From Tabrizicola sp. (GTDB lineage Bacteria > Pseudomonadota > Alphaproteobacteria > Rhodobacterales > Rhodobacteraceae), in NCBI RefSeq assembly GCF_022842145.1, contig NZ_JALHQD010000003.1:124001-188000 (forward strand): 64,000 nucleotides of DNA, in the 5' to 3' direction. A model generated the notes under the pieces. The model was not told where the DNA came from. It worked only from the letters and a program-made list of their open reading frames with translations, and did not search any database. A program made the position numbers and the translations under genes. The stretch's first letter is position 1. Each line of letters starts with the position of its first letter. Below are positions 9,181 to 60,366 of this stretch, in pieces.

Positions 9181-9999
9181 TCAGTCCCCCAGCTTGGCGT
9201 GAACCTCGTCGAGGTCAACCGGACCCTTCGGCAGCTTGTTCCCCGGGTTCTCGAAATCATAGCGGAAAAGCTGGAAATCCCGTTTGTAGATTTCCCACAT
9301 GAGATGCATCGAGAGATCGTCGAAATAGGCCTCGACCGGATGGGCGCGTTTCGGGCCGTGGCCTTCGCTTTCGTTGAAGCGGGGAATTGCGGCAAGATCG
9401 ACGGGGTGTTTCACCTGGATATTGTCCAGCACGACCTGCATGCCGGGATTGAAATCCTCGGTGAAGAAGATGTGGTTGTAGCGCCCGCCATTGACGATGA
9501 AGGTCGAGACATGGCCCGCCATTGCCGACCAGTGGATGTCCGGCTCCATCGGCTTTTTCCAGCGGATCGTGTCGCGGGCGAACAAGAGGAAGCGGCGGAA
9601 GCTGGCGATCTGGTCGAACTCCTGCTTGCCGTCGTCGCCGCCAACCTCGATCCCGTATTTCTGCACCAGAAGCGGCACGAGGTTGCCGCGGTAGCGCTTG
9701 CCGTTCCTTTGGATGCCGCAAATCTTGTCGAAGAAGGACGACATGATGCGGGTGTAGGGGTTGCGGACGCAGGTGAAGGCAAAGACCTGGCGGGCGCGCA
9801 CGGTGCGTTCGATCACCGGCTGGCTGGCATCCAGCGCCCATTTGTGCAGGCCCGTCGTCGCATCATGGATGTCGCCGTCGAAGAAGCGGCCGTGGTCGGA
9901 GTAGTACATGATCTGCCCGATGGTCGAGCAGGCGCATTTCGGCACCACCCGGTAGACGACGCTTTCGCTTTCCGTCATCCAGGTTCCGGGAAACCCCAT
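9181..9999 (-). CDS. Sulfotransferase family protein
   Basis: 272 residues from ATG 9999 (MGFPGTWMTESESVVYRVVP). The N-terminal 'RVVPKCACSTIGQIMYY' fits the PAPS 5'-phosphosulfate-binding loop of family-2 carbohydrate sulfotransferases. The second motif 'CVRNPYTRIMSSFFDKICG' fits the 3'-phosphate-binding region with its conserved Arg and Ser. It would transfer sulfate to a glycan. A longer in-frame start at 10065 exists but adds a non-family-like stretch. It is divergent from a DUF5928 glycosyltransferase gene with a gap under 150 bp, suggesting a shared glycan product. Confidence 0.82.
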   Translation of the reverse strand: MGFPGTWMTESESVVYRVVPKCACSTIGQIMYYSDHGRFFDGDIHDATTGLHKWALDASQPVIERTVRARQVFAFTCVRNPYTRIMSSFFDKICGIQRNGKRYRGNLVPLLVQKYGIEVGGDDGKQEFDQIASFRRFLLFARDTIRWKKPMEPDIHWSAMAGHVSTFIVNGGRYNHIFFTEDFNPGMQVVLDNIQVKHPVDLAAIPRFNESEGHGPKRAHPVEAYFDDLSMHLMWEIYKRDFQLFRYDFENPGNKLPKGPVDLDEVHAKLGD

Positions 10000-46197: not shown

Positions 46198-46992
46198 CTA
46201 GCCGATCCGGTAGCTTGACGCGGTGACGCCGCCGAACAGGCCGGTGTCGTGATAGACCATCTCTGCCGTCTCGCCTTCGGCCGCGCCAAGGGCAGCGAAG
46301 AGGGGGACGAAGTGGTCTTCCTCCTTGTGGCAGGTGCGCGCGTAGGGGGCGTCCTCCCAGTGGATCAGGCGGTTGGTGCGGTCTTCCGGTGCGGCGGCCA
46401 TCGTCTGGGCCAGCCAGGCGTCGAAGGCGTCGGAGGGGACCTTCGCCCCCGGTCCGAAGAGGCGCAGGTTGTGGTAGGAGAGGCCGGAGCCGACGATGAG
46501 GACACCCTCGTCGCGCAGGGGTGCGAGGGCTCGGCCAAGGGCGAAGTGTTCGGCGGGGGAGTAGCCCTTGCGGAGCGAAACCTGGAAGAGCGGCACGCTG
46601 GCGTCGGGGTACATGACGAAGGCGGGCACGAAAGTGCCATGATCATAGCCCTGTTCGGGGTCCAGCCGGACCGGCAGGCCCGCGGCGGCGATCAGGTCAT
46701 GCGCCCTTTGCGCAAGGTCGGGCGCGCCGGGGGCCTTGTACTGGATCTGGAAGGTCTCGGGGGGAAAGCCGGAGTAGTCGTAGACCATCGGCGGGTGGGC
46801 CGAGGACATGACGGCGAATCTTGCGTCCTCCCAGTGACCCGAGATCATCAGGATCGCCTTGGGGCGTTCGGGCAGGTCCTTGACCATCTGGACGAAGCTG
46901 GCCTCCAGGTTTTTGAACATGGCGCGCCAGTCGGGCATCCAGGGCCAGGGGCCGCCGCCGTGGCTGATGAAATAGGTGGGCATGCGGGTCAT
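46198..46992 (-). CDS. DODA-type extradiol ring-cleavage dioxygenase (LigB/YgiD-like)
   Basis: 264 residues from ATG 46992, with GGAGA upstream. Metal ligands of class III extradiol dioxygenases are visible: 'TYFISHGGGPWPW' (His near residue 12), 'ILMISGHWED' (His about 53), 'YDHGTFVPAFVMYPD' (His about 120) and 'GSGLSYHNLRLF'. The closest experimental relatives are 4,5-DOPA dioxygenases such as YgiD. The substrate here is unknown. A start at 47004 is an alternative. Confidence 0.88.
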   Translation of the reverse strand: MTRMPTYFISHGGGPWPWMPDWRAMFKNLEASFVQMVKDLPERPKAILMISGHWEDARFAVMSSAHPPMVYDYSGFPPETFQIQYKAPGAPDLAQRAHDLIAAAGLPVRLDPEQGYDHGTFVPAFVMYPDASVPLFQVSLRKGYSPAEHFALGRALAPLRDEGVLIVGSGLSYHNLRLFGPGAKVPSDAFDAWLAQTMAAAPEDRTNRLIHWEDAPYARTCHKEEDHFVPLFAALGAAEGETAEMVYHDTGLFGGVTASSYRIG

Positions 46993-50985: not shown

Positions 50986-51453
50986 TTGGACATCTTTCAC
51001 AGCTGGGACCTCGATGCGGCCCTGTCGAACCTGATCACCCTGGGGGTGGCCTATCTGCTGGCGCTGCCCATCGGCTGGAACCGGGAGCGGGAGGAACGCA
51101 GCGCCGGGCTGCGGACCTTTCCCCTGGTTGCCATCGCATCCTGCGGCTTCGTCATGGTGGCGCTGGACGTGATCGGGCCGAACTCGGGCGAGCATTCGCG
51201 TATCCTGGAAGGCCTGATGACCGGGATCGGCTTCATTGGCGGGGGCGCCATCCTGAAGCAGGGCGACCAGGCCAGGGGTACGGCGACGGCGGCAAGCCTC
51301 TGGGCCACCGGGGCCATCGGCGCGGCCGTGGGGTATGGGCAACTGGACATTGCGGTGATCCTCAGCCTGGTCACGGTGCTGACGCTGATCCTGCTTACTC
51401 CGCTGCGCAGGGTCGTGCAGGACCGCGGCGAATTCGACCGGGAGGAGTCCTAG
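50986..51453 (+). CDS. MgtC/SapB family membrane protein
   Basis: 155 residues from TTG 50986, with GGGAGAG upstream; a GTG at 50959 is the alternative. There are about four helices. Family hallmarks are 'LALPIGWNREREERSAGLRTFPLVAI', here about residues 23-48, and 'GIGFIGGGAILK' with 'VRGTATAASLWATGAIG'-like 'ARGTATAASLWATGAIGAAVG'. Members affect Mg2+ or phosphate homeostasis. The stop overlaps the convergent regulator gene by 4 bp. Confidence 0.88.
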   Translation: MDIFHSWDLDAALSNLITLGVAYLLALPIGWNREREERSAGLRTFPLVAIASCGFVMVALDVIGPNSGEHSRILEGLMTGIGFIGGGAILKQGDQARGTATAASLWATGAIGAAVGYGQLDIAVILSLVTVLTLILLTPLRRVVQDRGEFDREES

Positions 51454-52409
51454 CGGCGCAGGCTGCCCGGCGGCTGGCCGAAGCGGGCGCGAAAGGCGCG
51501 GGACAGGGTGGATGGGCTGGAGAATCCGGTGCGGAGCGCGACCTCGGCGACGGGGTGGCGGGTGTCGGTCAGCATCCGGCGCGCGGCCTGCAAGCGAAGA
51601 TCCAGGGCATGGGCGGCGGGCGTGGTTCCCAGCGCGGTCCGGAACAGCGTTTCCAGGCGGCGCGGGGAAACGCCGACCGCATTGGCAGTGGTGGCCGCAG
51701 GTTCCGGGGCGTCAATCCGCGCCTCCATCCGAGCAAGTGCCTGGGCCACGCGCGGGTCGAGGGTCGGGTCCTGTGCGTCCGCGATCTGCGGCTCGTGGCC
51801 GTGGCGGACCGTGGCCAGGAAGCTGGCGGCGACCTGACGCGCAAGGGCGGCACCGTGGCGGGCGCGGATCAGGTGCAGCATGAAATCGGCGGCCGGTGCT
51901 GCGCCTGCAATGGTCACCCGGTTGCGGTCGATGACGAAGCGGTCGGGCACGACATCGACATGCGGATGGGCGGCGGCGAGGTCCTCGAGATCCTCCCAGT
52001 GGACGGTGGCGCGGTGGCCGTCGAGGAGACCGGCGCGGGCCAGGACCCAGGGGGCGGCGTCGATGCCACCGACGAGCGCGAAGCGGGGCGCGATGCGGCG
52101 AAGGTCGCGGATCAGCGGGCGCGTCGCGACCTCGGCCAGACGGTAGCCGGCGATGACGATCAGGGCGTCGGCACCGGTGGCGTGGGAGAGGGGGCCGGAG
52201 GAAGGAAGCTCGATCCCGCAGGTCAGGGGCACGGGTGCGCCGTCGGGCGAGACGACGCGCCAGCGGTAAGCTTCGTGGCCGAGTTGGCGGTTGGCGTTGC
52301 GCAAGGGGTCAAGGGCCGAGGCGACCTCCAGTATCGAGGCCTGCGGCAGGACCAGAAGCGCGATGGTCAGGGGATCGCGCGCGGGTTGGAAGATGGCACT
52401 TTCCGTCAT
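51450..52409 (-). CDS. GlxA-family regulator (DJ-1/PfpI domain plus AraC HTH), probable carnitine regulator
   Basis: 319 residues. The N-terminal DJ-1-like sensor covers about 15-190; the nucleophile elbow is 'LVGGIDAAPWVLARAGLLDG', with Ile replacing the usual Cys. A C-terminal AraC DNA-binding domain covers about 210-319 ('RRLETLFRTALGTTPAAHALDLRL', 'VAEVALRTGFSSPSTLSRAFRARFGQ'). It is divergent from the beta-keto acid cleavage gene across a 74-bp gap, as CdhR is from carnitine genes in Pseudomonas and rhizobia. Control of the carnitine operon is inferred. Confidence 0.88.
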   Translation of the reverse strand: MTESAIFQPARDPLTIALLVLPQASILEVASALDPLRNANRQLGHEAYRWRVVSPDGAPVPLTCGIELPSSGPLSHATGADALIVIAGYRLAEVATRPLIRDLRRIAPRFALVGGIDAAPWVLARAGLLDGHRATVHWEDLEDLAAAHPHVDVVPDRFVIDRNRVTIAGAAPAADFMLHLIRARHGAALARQVAASFLATVRHGHEPQIADAQDPTLDPRVAQALARMEARIDAPEPAATTANAVGVSPRRLETLFRTALGTTPAAHALDLRLQAARRMLTDTRHPVAEVALRTGFSSPSTLSRAFRARFGQPPGSLRR

Positions 52410-52483: not shown

Positions 52484-53398
52484 ATGCCGCTCAACATGAA
52501 CAAGGAAGTCTTCATCACCTGCGCGGTGACCGGTTCCGGTGGCACGCAGGACCGGTCCCCCCATGTTCCGCGCAGCCCCAAGCAGATCGCCGAAAGCGCC
52601 ATCGCGGCGGCCAAGGCGGGCGCGGCGGTGGTGCATTGCCATGTGCGCGACCCCGAGACGGGCAAGCCGTCCCGCAAGCTGGAATACTACCGCGAGGTCA
52701 CCGACCGCATCCGCGACAGCGACACCGACGTGGTGCTGAACCTGACCGCCGGGATGGGCGGCGACATGTATTTCGACGATACCGAAACGATGACGACGAT
52801 GGCCGCAAGGTCCGACATGTGCGGTGCCGAAGAGCGGGTGGCGCATATCGTCGAATGCCGCCCGGAAATCTGCACGCTGGACTGCGGCACAATGAACTTC
52901 AACGAGGCCGACTACGTGATGGTCAACACGCCCGGCATGCTGCGCGACATGGCGAAGCGGATGACGGCGGCGGGTGTCAGGATCGAGATCGAGGCTTTCG
53001 ACACTGGCCATCTGTGGCTGGCGAAAGAGCTGGTGAAGGAGGGCGTGATCCCGGAACCCGTGCTGGTGCAGCTTTGCATGGGCGTACCGTGGGGTGCCCC
53101 GGACGACCTGAACACCTTCATGGCGATGGTGAACAACGTCCCCGCCGGCTGGCATTTCAGCGCCTTTGGACTGGGCCGCAACGAGATGGCCTATGTCGCC
53201 GCGGCCACGATTGCGGGCGGCAACGTGCGGGTCGGGTTGGAGGACAACCTCTGGCTGGAAAAGGGCGTCCTTGCGACCAACGCCCAGCTGGTGGAACGTG
53301 CGGCGACCATCGTCGAGAACCTGGGTGCGCGGGTGATCACCCCCGCCGAGGTCCGGGCGCGGCTGAAGCTGGAAAAGCGGGCGCCGGTCACGAAATGA
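52484..53398 (+). CDS. Beta-keto acid cleavage enzyme, likely 3-dehydrocarnitine cleavage (CdhC-type)
   Basis: 304 residues from ATG 52484, with GGAGGGAA upstream. The BKACE (DUF849) zinc site 'AAVVHCHVRDPETG' (His46/His48 approx.), the 'FITCAVTGS' substrate-loop start and 'GLEDNLWLEKGVLATNAQLVERA' are diagnostic. It would condense 3-dehydrocarnitine with acetyl-CoA to give betainyl-CoA and acetoacetate. The linked carnitine dehydrogenase-thioesterase fusion strongly supports this member of a family with many substrates. It is followed after 6 bp by a small membrane-protein gene. Confidence 0.92.
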   Translation: MPLNMNKEVFITCAVTGSGGTQDRSPHVPRSPKQIAESAIAAAKAGAAVVHCHVRDPETGKPSRKLEYYREVTDRIRDSDTDVVLNLTAGMGGDMYFDDTETMTTMAARSDMCGAEERVAHIVECRPEICTLDCGTMNFNEADYVMVNTPGMLRDMAKRMTAAGVRIEIEAFDTGHLWLAKELVKEGVIPEPVLVQLCMGVPWGAPDDLNTFMAMVNNVPAGWHFSAFGLGRNEMAYVAAATIAGGNVRVGLEDNLWLEKGVLATNAQLVERAATIVENLGARVITPAEVRARLKLEKRAPVTK

Positions 53399-53404
53399 TC
53401 GGCC

Positions 53405-53740
53405 TTGGACGTCCTGCTGACCGTGCTGGCGATCATGGCGGCTGGGTACGTCACCCCCGTCCTGATGCCCAACTGGCGCTGGCTGGCGGGGCTTGCGGCA
53501 CTTGGGGCAGTGGCCGGACTTGCGCTGTGGTTCGGCTGGGTCGAACGTCAGACCGACGGGCTTGGGGCGGGGGTGGCGGCGCTGCTCGTCCTTTCGGTCG
53601 CGGGGGTTTTCACGCTGGGCCTTGCGGTCCGCGCGCTGGTGCTGTGGCGCGGATGGACCGGGGGCCGGGCAGCCGTGGCCACGGTGCTGGGGGCGCTTAT
53701 CTGGTTGGGCGCGATCTTCTGGATGATCTGGACAAGCTAA
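53405..53740 (+). CDS. Small three- to four-helix membrane protein
   Basis: 111 residues from TTG 53405. It has four hydrophobic stretches: 'LLTVLAIMAAGYVTPVLM', 'LAGLAALGAVAGLALWFGW', 'GVAALLVLSVAGVFTLGLAV' and 'ATVLGALIWLGAIFWMIW'. I do not recognise a family. It lies inside the carnitine operon (6 bp after the cleavage-enzyme gene, 22 bp before the HD gene) and may be an accessory membrane protein. Confidence 0.72.
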   Translation: MDVLLTVLAIMAAGYVTPVLMPNWRWLAGLAALGAVAGLALWFGWVERQTDGLGAGVAALLVLSVAGVFTLGLAVRALVLWRGWTGGRAAVATVLGALIWLGAIFWMIWTS

Positions 53741-53762: not shown

Positions 53763-54383
53763 ATGGACAAGGTCAAGTTCACGGCGATGAAGGACGGCGA
53801 TGCCGCCGATTACGCCATGCTGGACGTGCATGAGCGGGACTATGCCGCGGGGACGGCGGATCGGCTGCTGACGGCACTGGTCGAGCTGGATGAAAGCCTG
53901 TCGGGCTATCAGGTCACCCGGCTGGGCCATTCCTTGCAGGCGGCGACCCGCGCCTGGCGGGCAGGGGCGGATACCGACTGGGTGGTCGCGGCCCTGCTGC
54001 ATGACATCGGCGACATCTATGCGCCCTACAATCACGACGAATACGCCGCCGCGATCCTGAAGCCCTTCGTCCGGGAACAGGTGACCTGGGTGGTGGAAAA
54101 GCACGGCGATTTCCAGCGGCTCTACTACGCCCACCACGTTGGCGGGAACCAGCATGCCCGCGACCGTTTCAAGGGCCATGCCTATTATGACGACTGCGCC
54201 CAGTTCTGCGAAGCCTGGGACCAGTCCAGCTTCGATCCCGCCTATCCGATGATGTCGGTCGCAGACTTCGCGCCCCTGGTGCGCGAGGTCTTTGCCCGCA
54301 AGGCCTATGATCCGGCCGTGATCCGGTCCGGTGAGCGGGTGCCGCTGACCGACCCCGCCCTTGCGGCCGGGCGGGCTGGATGA
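53763..54383 (+). CDS. HD-domain protein resembling PhnZ/TmpB mixed-valent di-iron oxygenases
   Basis: 206 residues. The core 'VTRLGHSLQAATRAWRAGAD' followed by 'VVAALLHDIGD' has the VT-x-L-x-H-x-LQ-x-A and ALLHDIG pattern of PhnZ-type HD oxygenases. Putative ligands in order are His56, His80-Asp81, His91, His114 or His124/125, and Asp153; this six-ligand set fits a di-iron site, unlike a one-metal HD phosphohydrolase. The lid Tyr/Glu pair of PhnZ is not conserved (Ser47 and Tyr49 at those positions by my alignment). In a trimethylammonium catabolic operon it may oxidise such a substrate; hydrolase activity cannot be excluded. Confidence 0.8.
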   Translation: MDKVKFTAMKDGDAADYAMLDVHERDYAAGTADRLLTALVELDESLSGYQVTRLGHSLQAATRAWRAGADTDWVVAALLHDIGDIYAPYNHDEYAAAILKPFVREQVTWVVEKHGDFQRLYYAHHVGGNQHARDRFKGHAYYDDCAQFCEAWDQSSFDPAYPMMSVADFAPLVREVFARKAYDPAVIRSGERVPLTDPALAAGRAG

Positions 54384-54658
54384 GGTCGTTCGCGCTGATC
54401 GCGGCGCTGGCGCTGTCGGCCTGTACCCCGGAGCCGGTCTGGGTCACGCCGGCCGGGGTGTCTTTGGGGGTGGTCGACTGCGACAGCCCGGCGCCTCTGG
54501 TGAGCGGCAAACGGGTTGAGGTGTGCCTCGCCCGTGCCATAGCCCAGACGCCGGTCGAGATCGCGCGGTGCGAAAGGGATGGCGGGCGGGTCGGACCGAT
54601 CTCGCCCATCGATGACAGGTTTGCCTGCACCTACCGCAAGCCGGGGGCGGGGGTGTGA
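54380..54658 (+). CDS. Small lipoprotein
   Basis: 92 residues with lipobox 'LALSAC' (Cys at about residue 15). The mature part contains three further Cys, in 'VDCDSPAP', 'VEVCLARAIAQTPVEIARCERDG' and 'FACTYR', which may form disulfides. No family recognised. The ATG overlaps the HD gene stop (ATGA at 54380-54383). Confidence 0.72.
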   Translation: MRSFALIAALALSACTPEPVWVTPAGVSLGVVDCDSPAPLVSGKRVEVCLARAIAQTPVEIARCERDGGRVGPISPIDDRFACTYRKPGAGV

Positions 54659-54680: not shown

Positions 54681-56159
54681 ATGAACAGGAAAGCGGCAAT
54701 CATCGGGGGCGGAGTGATCGGCGGCGGTTGGGCCGCGCGGTTCCTGCTGAACGGCTGGGATGTTGGCGTCTTCGACCCCGACCCCGAAGCCGAGCGGAAG
54801 ATTGCGGCGGTGATGTCGAATGCACGGGCCGCGCTGCCTGCGCTGTCGGACGTCCCGATGCCGCCGGAGGGGAAGCTGACCTTCCACGGCACCATCGGCG
54901 AGGCGGTCGAGGGCGCGGAATATGTGCAGGAGTCGGTCAGCGAGCGGATCGAGCTGAAGCACAAGGTCTATGCCCAGTTGCAACAGGCCAATCCGGGCGT
55001 GCTGATCGGGTCCTCGACCAGCGGGTTCAAGGCCAGCGACCTGCAGAAAGGGTCGCCCGCGCCGCAGAACATCATCGTCGCGCATCCGTTCAACCCGGTC
55101 TACCTGCTTCCCTTGTCCGAGGTGTCGGGATCGGACCGGAACCCGGTCGAGGTGGTGGAAAAGACCGTGCAGATCATGAAGGACATCGGGATGTTCCCCC
55201 TGGTGATCCGGCACGAGATCGACGCCTTCATCGGCAACCGCTTTCTGGAAGCCGTCTGGCGCGAGGCGTTGTGGATGCTGAAGGACGGCATCGCCACCAC
55301 CGAGGAGATCGACGAGGCGATCCGCATGGGCTTTGGCCTGCGCTGGGGGCAAATGGGCCTTTTCGAGACCTACCGAATTGCGGGCGGCGAGGCGGGGATG
55401 CGGCACTTCATGGCGCAGTTCGGCCCGGCGCTGAAATGGCCCTGGACCAAGCTGATGGATGTGCCCGAGTTCAACGAGGAACTGGTGGACCTGGTGGCCA
55501 ACCAGTCCGACGCGCAGTCCGGGATGTACACGATCCGCGAGCTGGAGCGCATCCGCGACCGGAACCTCGTGGGGTTCTTGCGGTCGCTCAAGGATCGGAA
55601 CTGGGGCGCGGGCAAGGTCCTGAAGGAACATGACGAACGCCGCGCCGCCGCCTTCCTCGCGCAGATGCAGACGGGCCTCGACACCTCGGCGAAGCCGGCG
55701 CCGCTGGTGATGTGGCAGGGCCAGGTCCTGCCGGGCTGGATCGACTACAATGGCCACATGACCGAGAGCCGCTACCTCTTCGCCTGCTCGGAAACCGTCG
55801 ACAACTTCCTGCGGATGATCGGCGCAGGCATGGATTACGTCGAAGCCGGTCACAGCTACTACGCCGCCGAAACCCATATCCGCCACCTGGCCGAAGCCAA
55901 GCTCGGCGACCAGATCCGTGGCGAGTTGCAGATGATCAGCGCCGACGAGAAGCGCTTCCGCCACTCCGTGCGGCTCATGGTCGGCGACACCTGCGTCGCC
56001 ACGGTGGAGCAGCTCTACCTCCACGTCGACATGAAGGTCGGCAAGTCCGTTCCGGCCGCGCCCGAGGTCTGGAAGAAACTGGAGACACTGGCGAATGCCC
56101 ACGCCGAACTGCCCATGCCGGATGGCGCGGGCCGGGCGGTCGGGCAAAAGAAGGGATAA
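54681..56159 (+). CDS. Carnitine 3-dehydrogenase fused to hotdog thioesterase
   Basis: 492 residues from ATG 54681, with GGGGACGGAAAG upstream. Residues about 1-310 are a 3-hydroxyacyl-CoA dehydrogenase-like oxidoreductase: 'AAIIGGGVIGGGWAARFLLNGW' NAD site, 'SSTSGFKASDLQ', 'AHPFNPVYLLPL' with catalytic His, and 'RFLEAVWREALWML'. Residues about 345-470 are a 4HBT hotdog thioesterase with 'DYNGHMTESRYLF'. The dehydrogenase oxidises L-carnitine to 3-dehydrocarnitine and the thioesterase can release glycine betaine from betainyl-CoA. The fusion is characteristic of rhizobial and rhodobacterial carnitine use. Confidence 0.93.
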   Translation: MNRKAAIIGGGVIGGGWAARFLLNGWDVGVFDPDPEAERKIAAVMSNARAALPALSDVPMPPEGKLTFHGTIGEAVEGAEYVQESVSERIELKHKVYAQLQQANPGVLIGSSTSGFKASDLQKGSPAPQNIIVAHPFNPVYLLPLSEVSGSDRNPVEVVEKTVQIMKDIGMFPLVIRHEIDAFIGNRFLEAVWREALWMLKDGIATTEEIDEAIRMGFGLRWGQMGLFETYRIAGGEAGMRHFMAQFGPALKWPWTKLMDVPEFNEELVDLVANQSDAQSGMYTIRELERIRDRNLVGFLRSLKDRNWGAGKVLKEHDERRAAAFLAQMQTGLDTSAKPAPLVMWQGQVLPGWIDYNGHMTESRYLFACSETVDNFLRMIGAGMDYVEAGHSYYAAETHIRHLAEAKLGDQIRGELQMISADEKRFRHSVRLMVGDTCVATVEQLYLHVDMKVGKSVPAAPEVWKKLETLANAHAELPMPDGAGRAVGQKKG

Positions 56160-56162
56160 GCG

Positions 56163-57326
56163 ATGGATTTCGGACTGACCGAAGAACAGCGGATGATCGT
56201 CGACACGACGCGGGCCTTCGTGGAGACCGAGCTTTATCCGCACGAACTTGCGGTGGAACGCACGGGCGTCCTGCCGGTCGAGCTGATCCGCGAGATCCAG
56301 CAAAAGGCCATCGCCGCGGGGCTTTACGCGGCCAACATGCCGGTCGAGGTCGGCGGCGCGGGGCTCGATACCTTGTCGTGGCTGCTTTACGAAAAGGAAC
56401 TGGGCCGGGCGAACTATGCGCTGCACTGGACCTGCGTGGCGCGGCCGTCGAACATCCTGCTGGCGGGTAATGCCGAGCAGCGGGAGCGGTATCTGATGCC
56501 CTGCATCCGGGGAGAGACCTGGGATTGCCTGGCGATGACCGAACCCGGCGCGGGGTCGGATCTGCGGGGGATGAAGGCCTCGGCCCGCCCGGACGGCGGC
56601 GATTGGGTGCTGAACGGGACGAAGCATTTCATCAGCCACGCCGATCTGGCGGGGTTTGCGATCGTGTTCATGGCAACCGGAGAGGAACAGACGTCGCGCG
56701 GCCCGAAAAAGCTGATCACGGCGTTCTTCGTCGACAAGGGAACGCCCGGGTTCACTGTGCGCGAGGGGTATCGGAACGTCAGCCACCGGGGCTACACGAA
56801 CGCGGTGCTGGAGTTCGACGATTGCCGGGTGCCTGCGGCGAACGTGCTGGGGGAGGTCCACAAGGGCTTCGAGGTGGCGAATTCCTGGCTGGGTGCGACC
56901 CGGTTGCAGGTGGCTTCGACCTGCCTTGGCCGGGCGGAGCGGGCCTTGGGTCACGCGATTGCCTATGCGGCAGAGCGCAAGCAGTTCGGGCAGGCGATCG
57001 GCAAGTTCCAGGGGGTGTCGTTCAAGCTGGCCGACATGGCGATGGAGCTGAAGGCGGCCGAGCTTCTAACGCGGGAAGCCGCGTGGAAATACGACCAGGG
57101 GACGGTGACCGAGGCCGACATGTCGATGGCCAAGCTGAAGGCGACCGAAGTGCTGGCCATGGTCGCGGATGAGGCGATCCAGATTCATGGCGGCATGGGG
57201 CTGATGGACGAGCTGCCTCTGGAGCGGATCTGGCGGGACTCACGCGTGGAGCGGATCTGGGAGGGTACCTCGGAAATCCAGCGGCACATCATCAGTCGCG
57301 AATTGCTGAGGGCGGTCGGGGGCTGA
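56163..57326 (+). CDS. Acyl-CoA dehydrogenase (probable gamma-butyrobetainyl-CoA dehydrogenase)
   Basis: 387 residues, 3 bp after the carnitine dehydrogenase fusion. Three-domain ACAD: N-terminal helices, beta domain 'LAMTEPGAGSDLRGMKASARP', and C-terminal helices with 'QIHGGMGLMDELPLERIWRDSRVERIWEGTSEIQRH', where the Glu in 'WEGTSEIQ' (about 367) aligns with the usual catalytic base. FAD-dependent. A crotonobetainyl-CoA-forming role is inferred from the carnitine neighbours; CaiA-like activity is the nearest analogue. Confidence 0.88.
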   Translation: MDFGLTEEQRMIVDTTRAFVETELYPHELAVERTGVLPVELIREIQQKAIAAGLYAANMPVEVGGAGLDTLSWLLYEKELGRANYALHWTCVARPSNILLAGNAEQRERYLMPCIRGETWDCLAMTEPGAGSDLRGMKASARPDGGDWVLNGTKHFISHADLAGFAIVFMATGEEQTSRGPKKLITAFFVDKGTPGFTVREGYRNVSHRGYTNAVLEFDDCRVPAANVLGEVHKGFEVANSWLGATRLQVASTCLGRAERALGHAIAYAAERKQFGQAIGKFQGVSFKLADMAMELKAAELLTREAAWKYDQGTVTEADMSMAKLKATEVLAMVADEAIQIHGGMGLMDELPLERIWRDSRVERIWEGTSEIQRHIISRELLRAVGG

Positions 57327-57577: not shown

Positions 57578-59566
57578 ATGACGCGCCTTGACCGCCTGCT
57601 TCGCCCGCGCCACATCGCCGTACTTGGTGCCGGCTGGGCGCTGAATGTCATCGAGCAGTGCGCCAAGATGGGCTTCAAGGGCCCGGTCTGGCCGGTGCAT
57701 CCGACCAAGTCCGAGATCGGCGGGCTGAGGGCTTATGCCTCGCTCGCCGACCTGCCAGAGCCACCCGACGCGGTCTTCATCGGGGTGAACCGCTTTGCCA
57801 CCATTGATGTGGTGGCCGAGCTGGCCGCGATGGGGGCGGGGGGGGCGATCTGTTTCGCCTCGGGCTGGACCGAGGCGGGGGAGCCGGGGCTGCAGGACAA
57901 GCTGGTCGCTGCGGCGGGGGAGATGCCGATCCTCGGCCCGAACTGCTATGGGGTGATCAACTACCTTGACGGCGCGCTGCTCTGGCCGGATCAGCATGGC
58001 GGGGTTCCGGTTTCCAGCGGGGTGGCGCTGGTCAGCCAGTCGTCCAACATCGTGATCAATCTTGGCATGCAGCAGCGCGGCCTGCCGGTCGCCTATGTCG
58101 CCTGTCTGGGTAATGCGGCCGTGGTGGGTCTGGCCGAACTGACCGGCGCCCTGTTGGACGATCCGCGGGTTACGGCCGTCGGCCTATACATCGAGGGGAT
58201 CGATGACGCCCCGGCCTTTGCCGCTTTGGCCGAGAAGGCGCGGGCGATGGGCAAGGGGGTTGTCGCGATCAAGTCCGGGAAGACCGAGCTTTCGCGGACC
58301 GCTGCGGCCTCGCACACGGCCTCGCTGGCGGGCGGGGGGGCGGCGTCCAGCGCCTTTCTGCGCCAGATCGGGGTGGCGGAAGTGGACAGCCCATCCGAAC
58401 TGGTCGAGGCCCTGAAGATCTTTCATGTCCACGGGCCGCAGATCGGGCGGCGGCTGTGTTCGCTGTCCTGTTCCGGCGGCGAGGCGGGGCTGGTTGCGGA
58501 TCTGGCCGCACCTTTCGGGCTCGCGTTTCCGCCGGTGCCGCAGGCGACGCATGACCGGTTGTTTGCCGTGCTGGGAGAGATCCCCACGATCTCCAACCCC
58601 TTGGATTACCATACCTTCATCTGGGGCGATGGCCCCAAGACCACCGAGGTTTTCACCGCGATGCTGGAGGCCTATGACGCCGGCATCTACATCATTGACG
58701 CCCCCCGGGACGATCGCTGCGATCCGTCGGGCTATGATCCCGCCTTCCGCGCCATCATCGATGCGCAGAAGGCGACCGGGAAAATCGCTTTTCCGGTCGC
58801 CTCGATGGCCGAGAACTTCGGCGAAGGCCGGGTGCAGTCTATGATGGCGGAAGGCGTCTGCGCGCTTCTGGGGCTGGAGACGGCGCTGGCGGCGATCCGT
58901 GCGGCCCAGACCGCTCCGGGTGTTGCGGGATGGCGGCCGGTGGTGGCGCTGCCCCCCCGCGAGACGCGGATGCTGTCGGAGGCGGAGGGGAAGGCTTTGC
59001 TTGCGGCGGCGGGTGTCGCGGTGCCGGGCTCTGTCACCGGGGCGACGATTGCCGAGGTCGCGGGGAGGGTGCGTTTCGGCGCGCCCTATGTGCTGAAGGG
59101 CCTTGGCTTTTCGCACAAGACCGAGGCCGGTGCGGTGCGTCTGGGGCTTGCCGCGCTGGAGGGGCAGGCCGAGATGCCGGGTGCGACCGGGTATCTGGTC
59201 GAGGAGATGGTGACCGGGGCGGTGGCCGAGGTGCTGATCGGCCTGCGGCGCGACCCGGTCTACGGGGTGACGCTGACGCTGGGCATGGGCGGGGTGACGG
59301 CCGAGGTGCTGGCGGACACGGTGACGATGGTGCTGCCGGTGAGCGAGGCTCATGTTCTGGAAGCGGCGCGGGGCTTGCGGCTTTGGCCCTTGCTGGATGG
59401 ATACCGGGGGCGGGCGAAGGCGGACATGGTGGCGGTCGCGGCAATGGCGGTGCGGCTGGAGGCGCTGATGCTGGCGGACGAGGGTCTGGAAGAGATAGAA
59501 ATCAATCCGGTCATGGTGCGCGAACAGGGCGCCGTGGCGGTGGATGCGTTGGTCAGGAGGATATGA
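57578..59566 (+). CDS. Acetate-CoA ligase family / NDP-forming acyl-CoA synthetase
   Basis: 662 residues. Order: CoA-binding Rossmann domain (1-130, 'HIAVLGAGWALNVIEQCA'), succinyl-CoA ligase-like domains (to about 460) with the phosphorylated His in 'AASHTASLAGG' (about 245), and an ATP-grasp domain (about 475-660) with 'PYVLKGLGFSHKTEAGAVRLGL' and 'EIEINPVMV'. It forms acyl-CoA with ADP or GDP rather than AMP release. In this operon it is the likely gamma-butyrobetaine or carnitine CoA-activating enzyme. The start is behind the inverted repeat pair. Confidence 0.9.
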   Translation: MTRLDRLLRPRHIAVLGAGWALNVIEQCAKMGFKGPVWPVHPTKSEIGGLRAYASLADLPEPPDAVFIGVNRFATIDVVAELAAMGAGGAICFASGWTEAGEPGLQDKLVAAAGEMPILGPNCYGVINYLDGALLWPDQHGGVPVSSGVALVSQSSNIVINLGMQQRGLPVAYVACLGNAAVVGLAELTGALLDDPRVTAVGLYIEGIDDAPAFAALAEKARAMGKGVVAIKSGKTELSRTAAASHTASLAGGGAASSAFLRQIGVAEVDSPSELVEALKIFHVHGPQIGRRLCSLSCSGGEAGLVADLAAPFGLAFPPVPQATHDRLFAVLGEIPTISNPLDYHTFIWGDGPKTTEVFTAMLEAYDAGIYIIDAPRDDRCDPSGYDPAFRAIIDAQKATGKIAFPVASMAENFGEGRVQSMMAEGVCALLGLETALAAIRAAQTAPGVAGWRPVVALPPRETRMLSEAEGKALLAAAGVAVPGSVTGATIAEVAGRVRFGAPYVLKGLGFSHKTEAGAVRLGLAALEGQAEMPGATGYLVEEMVTGAVAEVLIGLRRDPVYGVTLTLGMGGVTAEVLADTVTMVLPVSEAHVLEAARGLRLWPLLDGYRGRAKADMVAVAAMAVRLEALMLADEGLEEIEINPVMVREQGAVAVDALVRRI

Positions 59567-60366
59567 TGGCGATGCAAATGCGGTCCGAGGGGCCGATACT
59601 TACGCGGCGGGAAGGGGCGATCCTGGAAGTCACGCTCGACGCGCCGAAGGCGAATGCGATCAGCCTCAAGACCAGCCGTGTGATGGGGCTGGTGTTCCGG
59701 GATTTCCGCGATGACGACAGTTTGCGGGTCTGCATCCTGCGCGCGGCGGGGGAGAAGTTCTTCTGCCCCGGTTGGGACCTGAAGGCGGCGGCCGAGGGCG
59801 ATGCGGTGGACGGCGACTACGGCGTAGGCGGTTTCGGCGGGTTGCAGGAGTTGCCGAACCTCAACAAGCCGGTGATTGCCGCGGTGCAGGGCATCTGCTG
59901 CGGTGGCGGGCTGGAACTGGCGCTGTCGGCGGACCTGATCCTGTGTTCCACCAACGCGACCTTCGCCTTGCCGGAAATCCGGTCTGGCACCGTGGCGGAC
60001 GCGGCCAGCATCAAGCTGCCCAAGCGCATTCCGTATCACGTGGCGATGGACCTGCTTCTTACGGGGCGCTGGTTCGATGCCGAGGAGGCGCATCGCTGGG
60101 GCCTGATCAAGGAGATCTGCGCGCCGGACGAGTTGCTGGGCAAGGCCTGGGACCTGGCGCGGCTTTTGGAAAGCGGGCCGCCGCTGGTCTATGCGGCGAT
60201 CAAGGAAGTGGTCCGCGAAGCGGAGGCTATGCGCTTCCAGGACGCGCTGAACCGGGTCACCAAGCGGCAGATGCCGACGGTGGACCGGCTTTATTCGTCC
60301 GAGGACCAGCTGGAGGGGGCGAAGGCGTTTGCGGAGAAGCGAGAGCCGGTCTGGAAGGGGAAGTAA
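59566..60366 (+). CDS. Enoyl-CoA hydratase family protein, probable carnitinyl-CoA dehydratase
   Basis: 266 residues. Start ATG 59566 has AGGAGG five bases upstream; ATGs at 59563 and 59572 are in frame. The crotonase oxyanion motif 'ICCGGGLELALSADLIL' and the 'FALPEIRSGTVADAASIKLPKRIPY' loop with conserved Glu place it near CaiD. It would hydrate crotonobetainyl-CoA to carnitinyl-CoA. Its frame overlaps the CoA-ligase stop by 1 bp, so both are co-translated. Confidence 0.88.
   Translation: MAMQMRSEGPILTRREGAILEVTLDAPKANAISLKTSRVMGLVFRDFRDDDSLRVCILRAAGEKFFCPGWDLKAAAEGDAVDGDYGVGGFGGLQELPNLNKPVIAAVQGICCGGGLELALSADLILCSTNATFALPEIRSGTVADAASIKLPKRIPYHVAMDLLLTGRWFDAEEAHRWGLIKEICAPDELLGKAWDLARLLESGPPLVYAAIKEVVREAEAMRFQDALNRVTKRQMPTVDRLYSSEDQLEGAKAFAEKREPVWKGK

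Follow-up and report, generated by a model that had tools for sequence, protein, structure and literature searches.

The window, a stretch of 64,000 nucleotides from a Tabrizicola genome, carries a carnitine-type operon, and within that operon lies a gene for an HD-domain protein (Table 1). Its reading frame has an ATG start and encodes 206 amino acids, in which the motifs VTRLGHSLQAA and ALLHDIG are read. The original prediction had placed exactly this frame, with these motifs, between a cleavage enzyme and a carnitine dehydrogenase-thioesterase. The sequence agrees to the letter, and the matches that identify the two neighbours lie on either side.

Table 1. Genes of the operon and its regulator, with positions in the window
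Feature	Position	Strand	Basis
GbdR/CdhR-like AraC-type regulator, divergent	51450..52409	-	NF052371 (GbdR) 189.2 bits, below cut-off of 480; DJ-1/PfpI and HTH_18 domains
BKACE (beta-keto acid cleavage enzyme)	52484..53398	+	PF05853, 337.8 bits; dehydrocarnitine cleavage type by context
Small 111-aa protein, lineage-specific	53405..53740	+	No Pfam or NCBIfam match
HD protein, putative two-metal site H56, H80, D81, H91, H114, D153	53763..54383	+	Sequence, conservation, profile, fold
Small 92-aa protein, start overlapping the HD stop codon (ATGA)	54380..54658	+	No family match
L-carnitine 3-dehydrogenase fused to thioesterase-like domain	54681..56159	+	NF005716, 741.3 bits (cut-off 592); 4HBT_2
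Acyl-CoA dehydrogenase, probably for gamma-butyrobetainyl-CoA	56163..57326	+	Acyl-CoA_dh domains; same operon in related loci
ATP-grasp acyl-CoA ligase, ADP-forming acetate-CoA ligase type	57578..59566	+	Family match; below NCBIfam cut-offs
Enoyl-CoA hydratase-like protein, start approximate	59566..60366	+	Named by reading the sequence; conserved in the operon

The two small reading frames that flank the HD gene were considered as parts of the same system and rejected, being lineage-specific. That for 111 amino acids is present only in locus L015 among the best 80 of at least 568 relatives' loci; that for 92 amino acids is also found in L015, and in G001 (L126), where the HD gene is absent. 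The CoA ligase is less well kept than the genes around it: compared with Mesorhizobium it stands at about 46%, and the acyl-CoA dehydrogenase at about 83%. As had been predicted, no phosphonate gene is nearby: none was found among the nine neighbours of the HD gene that were run through Pfam and NCBIfam, two of which gave no match at all. The sole match to TIGR03276 in the window's genome is the HD gene itself, at 36.8 bits.

The HD superfamily signature H...HD...D is present in the protein (PF01966, 29.9 bits against a cut-off of 22). Conservation was judged with 160 unique homologues, drawn from 184 loci with a match, 172 of them with a clean frame. Here, all 160 have H80, D81, H91, H114, and D153, and 159 have H56; R34, R53, Q59, D84, Q118, R133, C149, and Q154 are invariant as well. 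In its accessible part, a review of HD enzymes defines the mixed-valent di-iron oxygenases by six ligands in the order H...HD...H...H...D (PMC8177086, section 1.4), and the HD protein has all six. The same source describes one-metal HD hydrolases as being without the extra conserved histidine ligands, which the HD protein has (PMC8177086, accessible part). Thus, the six-ligand set of a putative two-metal site that had been proposed is supported, and by sequence the site is not of the one-metal type. For the fourth ligand (counting the HD pair as one), H114 had been offered along with H124 or H125 as alternatives. H114 stands; H124 (116 of 160) and H125 (147 of 160) are less conserved and were rejected as ligands.

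The comparison with known structures points the same way. A search of the PDB with the single sequence gave PhnZ at 4e-6 and TmpB at 0.004, followed by Cas10 and MIOX at E of at least 0.085. A profile built from 108 homologues gave PhnZ at 7e-11, TmpB at 4e-9, the HD domain of Cas10 at 0.007, and an unrelated lipase at 0.39; up to an E of 10, it matched nothing else. An AlphaFold model made from the 108-row alignment has a mean pLDDT of 96.0 and a pTM of 0.91. With this model, Foldseek returned 151 matches with E up to 10. The ten below 0.001 are all chains of PhnZ or TmpB, with TM-scores of 0.57 to 0.70, and neither an HD hydrolase nor MIOX is among them. Next, among the best 50 of the 151, come a tRNA processing enzyme (0.10), the alarmone hydrolase RelH (0.81), and the dNTP hydrolase 2dqb (1.5). 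The predicted fold is therefore closer to PhnZ and TmpB than to the HD hydrolases by profile, model, and Foldseek alike, and the two oxygenases that the original prediction had named are indeed the nearest.

Likeness to these oxygenases is, of course, not membership in their families. PhnZ (4mlm, 4n6w), which oxidizes 2-amino-1-hydroxyethylphosphonate, shares the fold, the ligand order, and the HSLQ motif with the HD protein; it differs in sequence (23-24% identity), in a longer spacing between the HD pair and the next histidine, and in lacking an arginine three residues before the first histidine. TmpB (6npa), the (R)-1-hydroxy-2-trimethylaminoethylphosphonate oxygenase, is alike in fold (best E 3e-5) and in ligands, with an identity of 20-22%. 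The NCBIfam models place the protein far outside both: TIGR03276 gives 38.3 bits where 214.6 are needed, and NF049941 and NF052439 (cut-offs of 300 each) give 29.6 and 30.3, the 29.6 being the value for TmpB. In the accessible part of the review, a YxxE lid marks PhnZ (Y24/E27) and TmpB (Y30/E33) (PMC8177086). The corresponding stretch of the HD protein is L46-S-G-Y49, with L46 in 150 and Y49 in 157 of the 160 homologues, so the earlier statement that the Tyr/Glu lid is not kept was correct. These residue matches to PhnZ come from sequence alignments rather than from structural superposition.

Two further positions differ. After HDxG the HD protein has Asp (D84) instead of His, and four residues after H114 it has Gln (Q118) instead of Lys, both in 160 of 160 homologues. 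In a Phn-HD reference protein (L014, 216.6 bits with TIGR03276 against the cut-off of 214.6), all six ligands align and the His and the Lys are present. We take this His (in HDxGH) and this Lys (four after the fifth ligand) to bind the phosphonate. Y49, where the lid has its Glu, could instead hold a trimethylammonium group. The description of the protein as a "PhnZ/TmpB-like HD di-iron protein" thus survives for the fold and the two-metal ligands; placement in the PhnZ or the TmpB family was rejected. MIOX has a two-metal HD site in common with the HD protein, and its C-C cleavage is of the type proposed below, but the MIOX match in Pfam is weak (19.3 bits, below the cut-off of 25).

A neighbourhood survey asked how far the setting of the HD gene recurs. 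Within the window's genus, the carnitine dehydrogenase is found in 31 of 32 genomes and an intact HD gene in 7 of 32, where its coordinates always adjoin those of the carnitine dehydrogenase. The family profile matches in 59 of 398 Pseudomonadota genomes. These two observations imply that the gene is more than a chance arrival. Among the best 80 of at least 568 relatives, from named genomes, 32 loci keep the order BKACE, HD, carnitine dehydrogenase, acyl-CoA dehydrogenase, ligase, hydratase. These loci (L015-L045 and L050) are from Tabrizicola, Pseudotabrizicola, Mesorhizobium, Hoeflea, and metagenome-assembled genomes or isolates with less exact names. The remaining 48 gave no match to BKACE or to carnitine dehydrogenase within the stretch covered, which is short for some contigs. 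The same operon occurs in five of 40 loci outside the bacterial family (40 of 50 such places), and only one of the 89 HD loci of the family sample, L160, lies in a carnitine operon.

Viewed from the other side, 60 stretches around carnitine dehydrogenase genes were collected: the 30 best from genomes whose HD gene is unlinked, and the 30 best from the family sample. The HD gene is absent from 58 of these and present only in the window's own and in L134, which makes it an optional addition to carnitine operons. A quick tree (the 130 rows left of the 160 homologues after thinning at 90% identity, with SH-aLRT values and no bootstrap) puts the carnitine-linked proteins in one clade of 11 from two orders of Alphaproteobacteria (SH-aLRT 96), with L134 elsewhere. 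This implies at least two origins for the carnitine linkage, although the placement of L134 could also reflect replacement or tree error. A further case is L347, from another class of Pseudomonadota, where a regulator, BKACE, and carnitine dehydrogenase are divergent from a TmpA-like hydroxylase and an HD gene, next to which lies a gene whose product reads as a betaine-type binding protein. The predicted linkage to carnitine genes therefore recurs in related genomes rather than failing there. It needs to be qualified in that the HD gene is optional and most members of its family are found elsewhere.

Where the HD gene lies elsewhere, it is often preceded by a gene for a 2-oxoglutarate hydroxylase. 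Leaving aside the carnitine operons of the first kind, 137 loci were available: 48 from the best 80 of at least 568, and 89 (L160 included) from 246 evenly sampled genomes of the family. In 59 of these (23 of 48 and 36 of 89), a PhyH gene is directly upstream of the HD gene on the same strand, identified as PF05721 in the three examples tested. The last base of the PhyH stop codon is the start of the HD match in 28 of the 59. Three of the 59 have a partial PhyH gene: L049, at a contig end, and L062 (~9762-9992) and L072 (~9777-9968), where C-terminal remnants directly precede an intact HD gene. These two remnants imply that the hydroxylase can disappear while the HD gene persists. L181 has its PhyH gene at a distance of 1.5 kb, and another gene intervenes. 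The paired PhyH proteins keep H115, D117, H204, and R215 in at least 95% of 56. Paired-type PhyH was found in 50 of the 246 genomes, and 48 of those 50 have the HD gene, as against 39 of the other 196. In the window's genome no paired-type PhyH was found, only two other PhyH proteins.

A second kind of hydroxylase takes the same place in four loci. In L272, L316, L317, and L347, a gene resembling those for TmpA and gamma-butyrobetaine dioxygenase is directly upstream of the HD gene, with NCBIfam TmpA scores of 347.5, 317.7, 358.0, and 422.8 against a cut-off of 400. That in L347 (5546-6724, minus strand) exceeds the cut-off within a carnitine locus, where reading of the sequence gave no phosphonate gene within 10.5 kb; the TmpA model may thus give the name TmpA to gamma-butyrobetaine-type hydroxylases. 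No TmpA match was found in the window's genome, in a search that was silent in control genomes too and so leaves absence unproven. These two layouts, PhyH-HD and TmpA-like-HD, are those of PhnY-PhnZ and TmpA-TmpB.

The HD proteins from the two settings can themselves be compared. In majority residues, the ligand-bearing stretches of 35 carnitine-linked proteins and of the 41 nearer PhyH-linked proteins are near-identical, and at the thresholds used only positions 28, 60, 123, and 132 separate them. This, in turn, favours one substrate class for both. It also favours the view that a PhyH hydroxylase would make elsewhere what the CoA route would make in the window's operon. Nine more distant PhyH-linked HD proteins differ more around the ligands.

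Other settings are more scattered. Downstream of the TmpA-like and HD genes of L272 are genes for a choline-binding protein, a choline dehydrogenase, and an aldehyde dehydrogenase. An amidohydrolase-Rieske ferredoxin-HD arrangement occurs in second Mesorhizobium copies (L047, L048, L051), in L311, and in Rhizobium L274. Near the HD gene, choline-dehydrogenase-like genes are seen in L274 and L051, and MttB-like and trimethylamine-dehydrogenase-like genes in L047 and L311; the genes of L047, L051, L274, and L311 were named by reading and by tblastn of one locus against another rather than with family models. Beyond the bacterial family, 27 of the 40 loci had no match to carnitine, amine, or hydroxylase queries. 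In L275, L344, L346, and L349 the HD gene adjoins a class II aldolase/adducin gene (annotated in L275, otherwise named by reading), which suggests a further sub-family with another role. A gene read as valS follows the HD gene in 28 of the 48 loci without carnitine genes; it was taken as gene order only, with no functional reading.

Co-occurrence was counted in the 246 genomes (245 genera), with cut-offs of E 1e-30 for the HD protein and 1e-90 for carnitine dehydrogenase. The former is found in 87 genomes and the latter in 182. Carnitine dehydrogenase is present in 84 of the 87 HD genomes and in 98 of the 159 others (Fisher 9e-11, with kinship between genera uncorrected). An unrelated control, the window gene at 46201-46992 (minus strand; an extradiol-type dioxygenase by reading), shows no association (30 of 39 and 152 of 207; 0.84). 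However, full-length Phn-HD-type genes, taken as those that reach 190 bits with TIGR03276 and found in 35 genomes (190-210 bits, all under the cut-off of 214.6), associate with carnitine dehydrogenase in the same way, in 35 of 35. Genome-level co-occurrence was for this reason rejected as proof of a carnitine role and is only supporting. With the Phn-HD-type genomes removed, the counts are 56 of 59 with the HD gene and 91 of 152 without (1e-7, kinship again uncorrected). The HD gene and full-length Phn-HD-type genes also share genomes above expectation (28 of 87, against 7 of 159).

The reading that we prefer, with a probability of about 0.58, is that the HD protein is a di-iron oxygenase of the mixed-valent type that cuts a hydroxylated trimethylammonium compound, giving glycine betaine as a product. 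We infer its iron, its oxygenase chemistry, and its substrate class, and these parts are not equally firm. An oxygenase function is likely; a quaternary ammonium substrate is more probable than not; any single exact substrate is a guess. Against the oxygenase reading stand the hydrolase-like R53, the missing YxxE lid, the failure of the searches to find a partner hydroxylase of either kind in the window's genome, the optional presence of the gene, the many relatives without such neighbours, and the fact that, to our knowledge, the textbook carnitine route leaves no gap for such an enzyme.

A warning is R53, which is invariant, lies three residues before the first ligand, and had gone unmentioned in the original prediction. 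By the accessible part of the review, an arginine typically at this position is common to the HD phosphohydrolases (PMC8177086, Fig. 3 legend). SAMHD1, YfbR, YqeK, and others share it, together with the HD signature, and it would speak for a two-metal phosphohydrolase or phosphodiesterase whose substrate would be a nucleotide or an ester of the CoA type and whose role would be regulation or clean-up. YqeK and the HD phosphodiesterases are further described there as having similar ligand sets with an extra histidine (PMC8177086, accessible part), and some relatives are annotated "HD domain-containing protein" or "phosphohydrolase," another being called an "inositol oxygenase family protein." Yet the only HD hydrolase within reach by sequence is the HD domain of Cas10, listed as a hydrolase in the review's table (PMC8177086, accessible part) and far behind PhnZ and TmpB, and none comes under 0.001 by fold. 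Nor is there an evident reason for a hydrolase to be paired with 2-oxoglutarate hydroxylases of two superfamilies. A hydrolase is, on balance, quite unlikely. Far more improbable is a true TmpB or PhnZ phosphonate oxygenase relocated into a carnitine operon: these are the nearest characterised relatives, and TmpB shares the trimethylammonium theme, but the low scores, the missing lid, the replaced His and Lys, and the tested neighbours all contradict it. A substrate other than a phosphonate is, as first proposed, the better guess.

The protein could also be an HD oxygenase whose substrate lies outside carnitine metabolism, such as a hydroxy acid that PhyH produces, and be a passenger in the carnitine operon. 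Most family members found here are, after all, unlinked to carnitine genes; the PhyH pairs of marine Rhodobacteraceae have almost no matches to carnitine or amine queries within ~6 kb; and some distant members are near the aldolase genes already mentioned. Against this count its hold on the same slot in two orders of Alphaproteobacteria with at least two origins, its reappearance beside carnitine genes in another class (L347), and the choline- or methylamine-type genes near it in L272, L274, L051, and L311. We regard this explanation as unlikely, if worth keeping in mind.

As a quaternary ammonium oxygenase, the HD enzyme would work like PhnZ, TmpB, and MIOX. A mixed-valent di-iron centre would bind the substrate through its hydroxyl, the other iron would bind O2, and a hydrogen would be abstracted from the carbinol carbon. 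The neighbouring C-C bond, rather than a C-P bond, would then be cleaved in a four-electron oxidation that needs no outside reductant. TmpB acts on Me3N+-CH2-CH(OH)-PO3 and releases glycine betaine, according to the accessible part of a phosphonate review (PMC10574752). The substrate of the HD enzyme would most likely be of the carnitine or gamma-butyrobetaine type, Me3N+-CH2-CH(OH)-X, which is the TmpB substrate with its phosphonate replaced. Carnitine itself is Me3N+-CH2-CH(OH)-CH2-COO-, and its breakdown route likewise ends in glycine betaine. The hydroxyl would be supplied in the window's operon by CoA-dependent steps (ligase, acyl-CoA dehydrogenase, hydratase), and in relatives by the enzyme encoded just upstream, either PhyH or one resembling TmpA and gamma-butyrobetaine hydroxylase.

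Several reactions balance with one O2: carnitine to betaine and glycolic acid, 3-dehydrocarnitine to betaine and glyoxylic acid, and 2-hydroxy-3-trimethylammoniopropionate to betaine, CO2, and H2O. The first two allow a tentative and rather doubtful proposal, in which the HD enzyme would cleave C2-C3 of carnitine or 3-dehydrocarnitine to give glycine betaine and glycolate (or glyoxylate), as an O2-dependent, iron-only branch that bypasses CoA chemistry. If so, the HD enzyme and an upstream gamma-butyrobetaine hydroxylase, of the PhyH or the TmpA-like kind, would make up a two-enzyme pathway from gamma-butyrobetaine to betaine, the carboxylate counterpart of TmpA/TmpB. Trimethylaminoacetone forms when 3-dehydrocarnitine loses CO2; its salvage by the HD enzyme is possible and was set aside, as it would need an added hydroxylation.

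The HD oxygenases named in the accessible part of one review are MIOX, PhnZ, and TmpB (PMC8177086); the fungal fusion PhoF and a PhnZ variant that acts on hydroxymethylphosphonate appear in the accessible part of a more recent phosphonate review (PMC10574752). The titles and abstract openings listed, in a search that left most subscription literature outside, held no description of this HD family or of HD proteins encoded in carnitine operons. The family may therefore be an undescribed branch of the HD oxygenases, acting on carnitine-, choline-, or betaine-like compounds. If this is true, the class would extend to enzymes that cleave C-C bonds in quaternary ammonium compounds, a function could be given to proteins that now bear the labels "HD domain-containing protein" or "phosphohydrolase," and there may be an additional O2-dependent route to glycine betaine. 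A last, minor observation concerns L333 and L336, where a gene for a small membrane-like protein is directly upstream of the HD gene; by eye, this protein presumably resembles the DUF962/Mpo1 2-hydroxy-fatty-acid dioxygenases.
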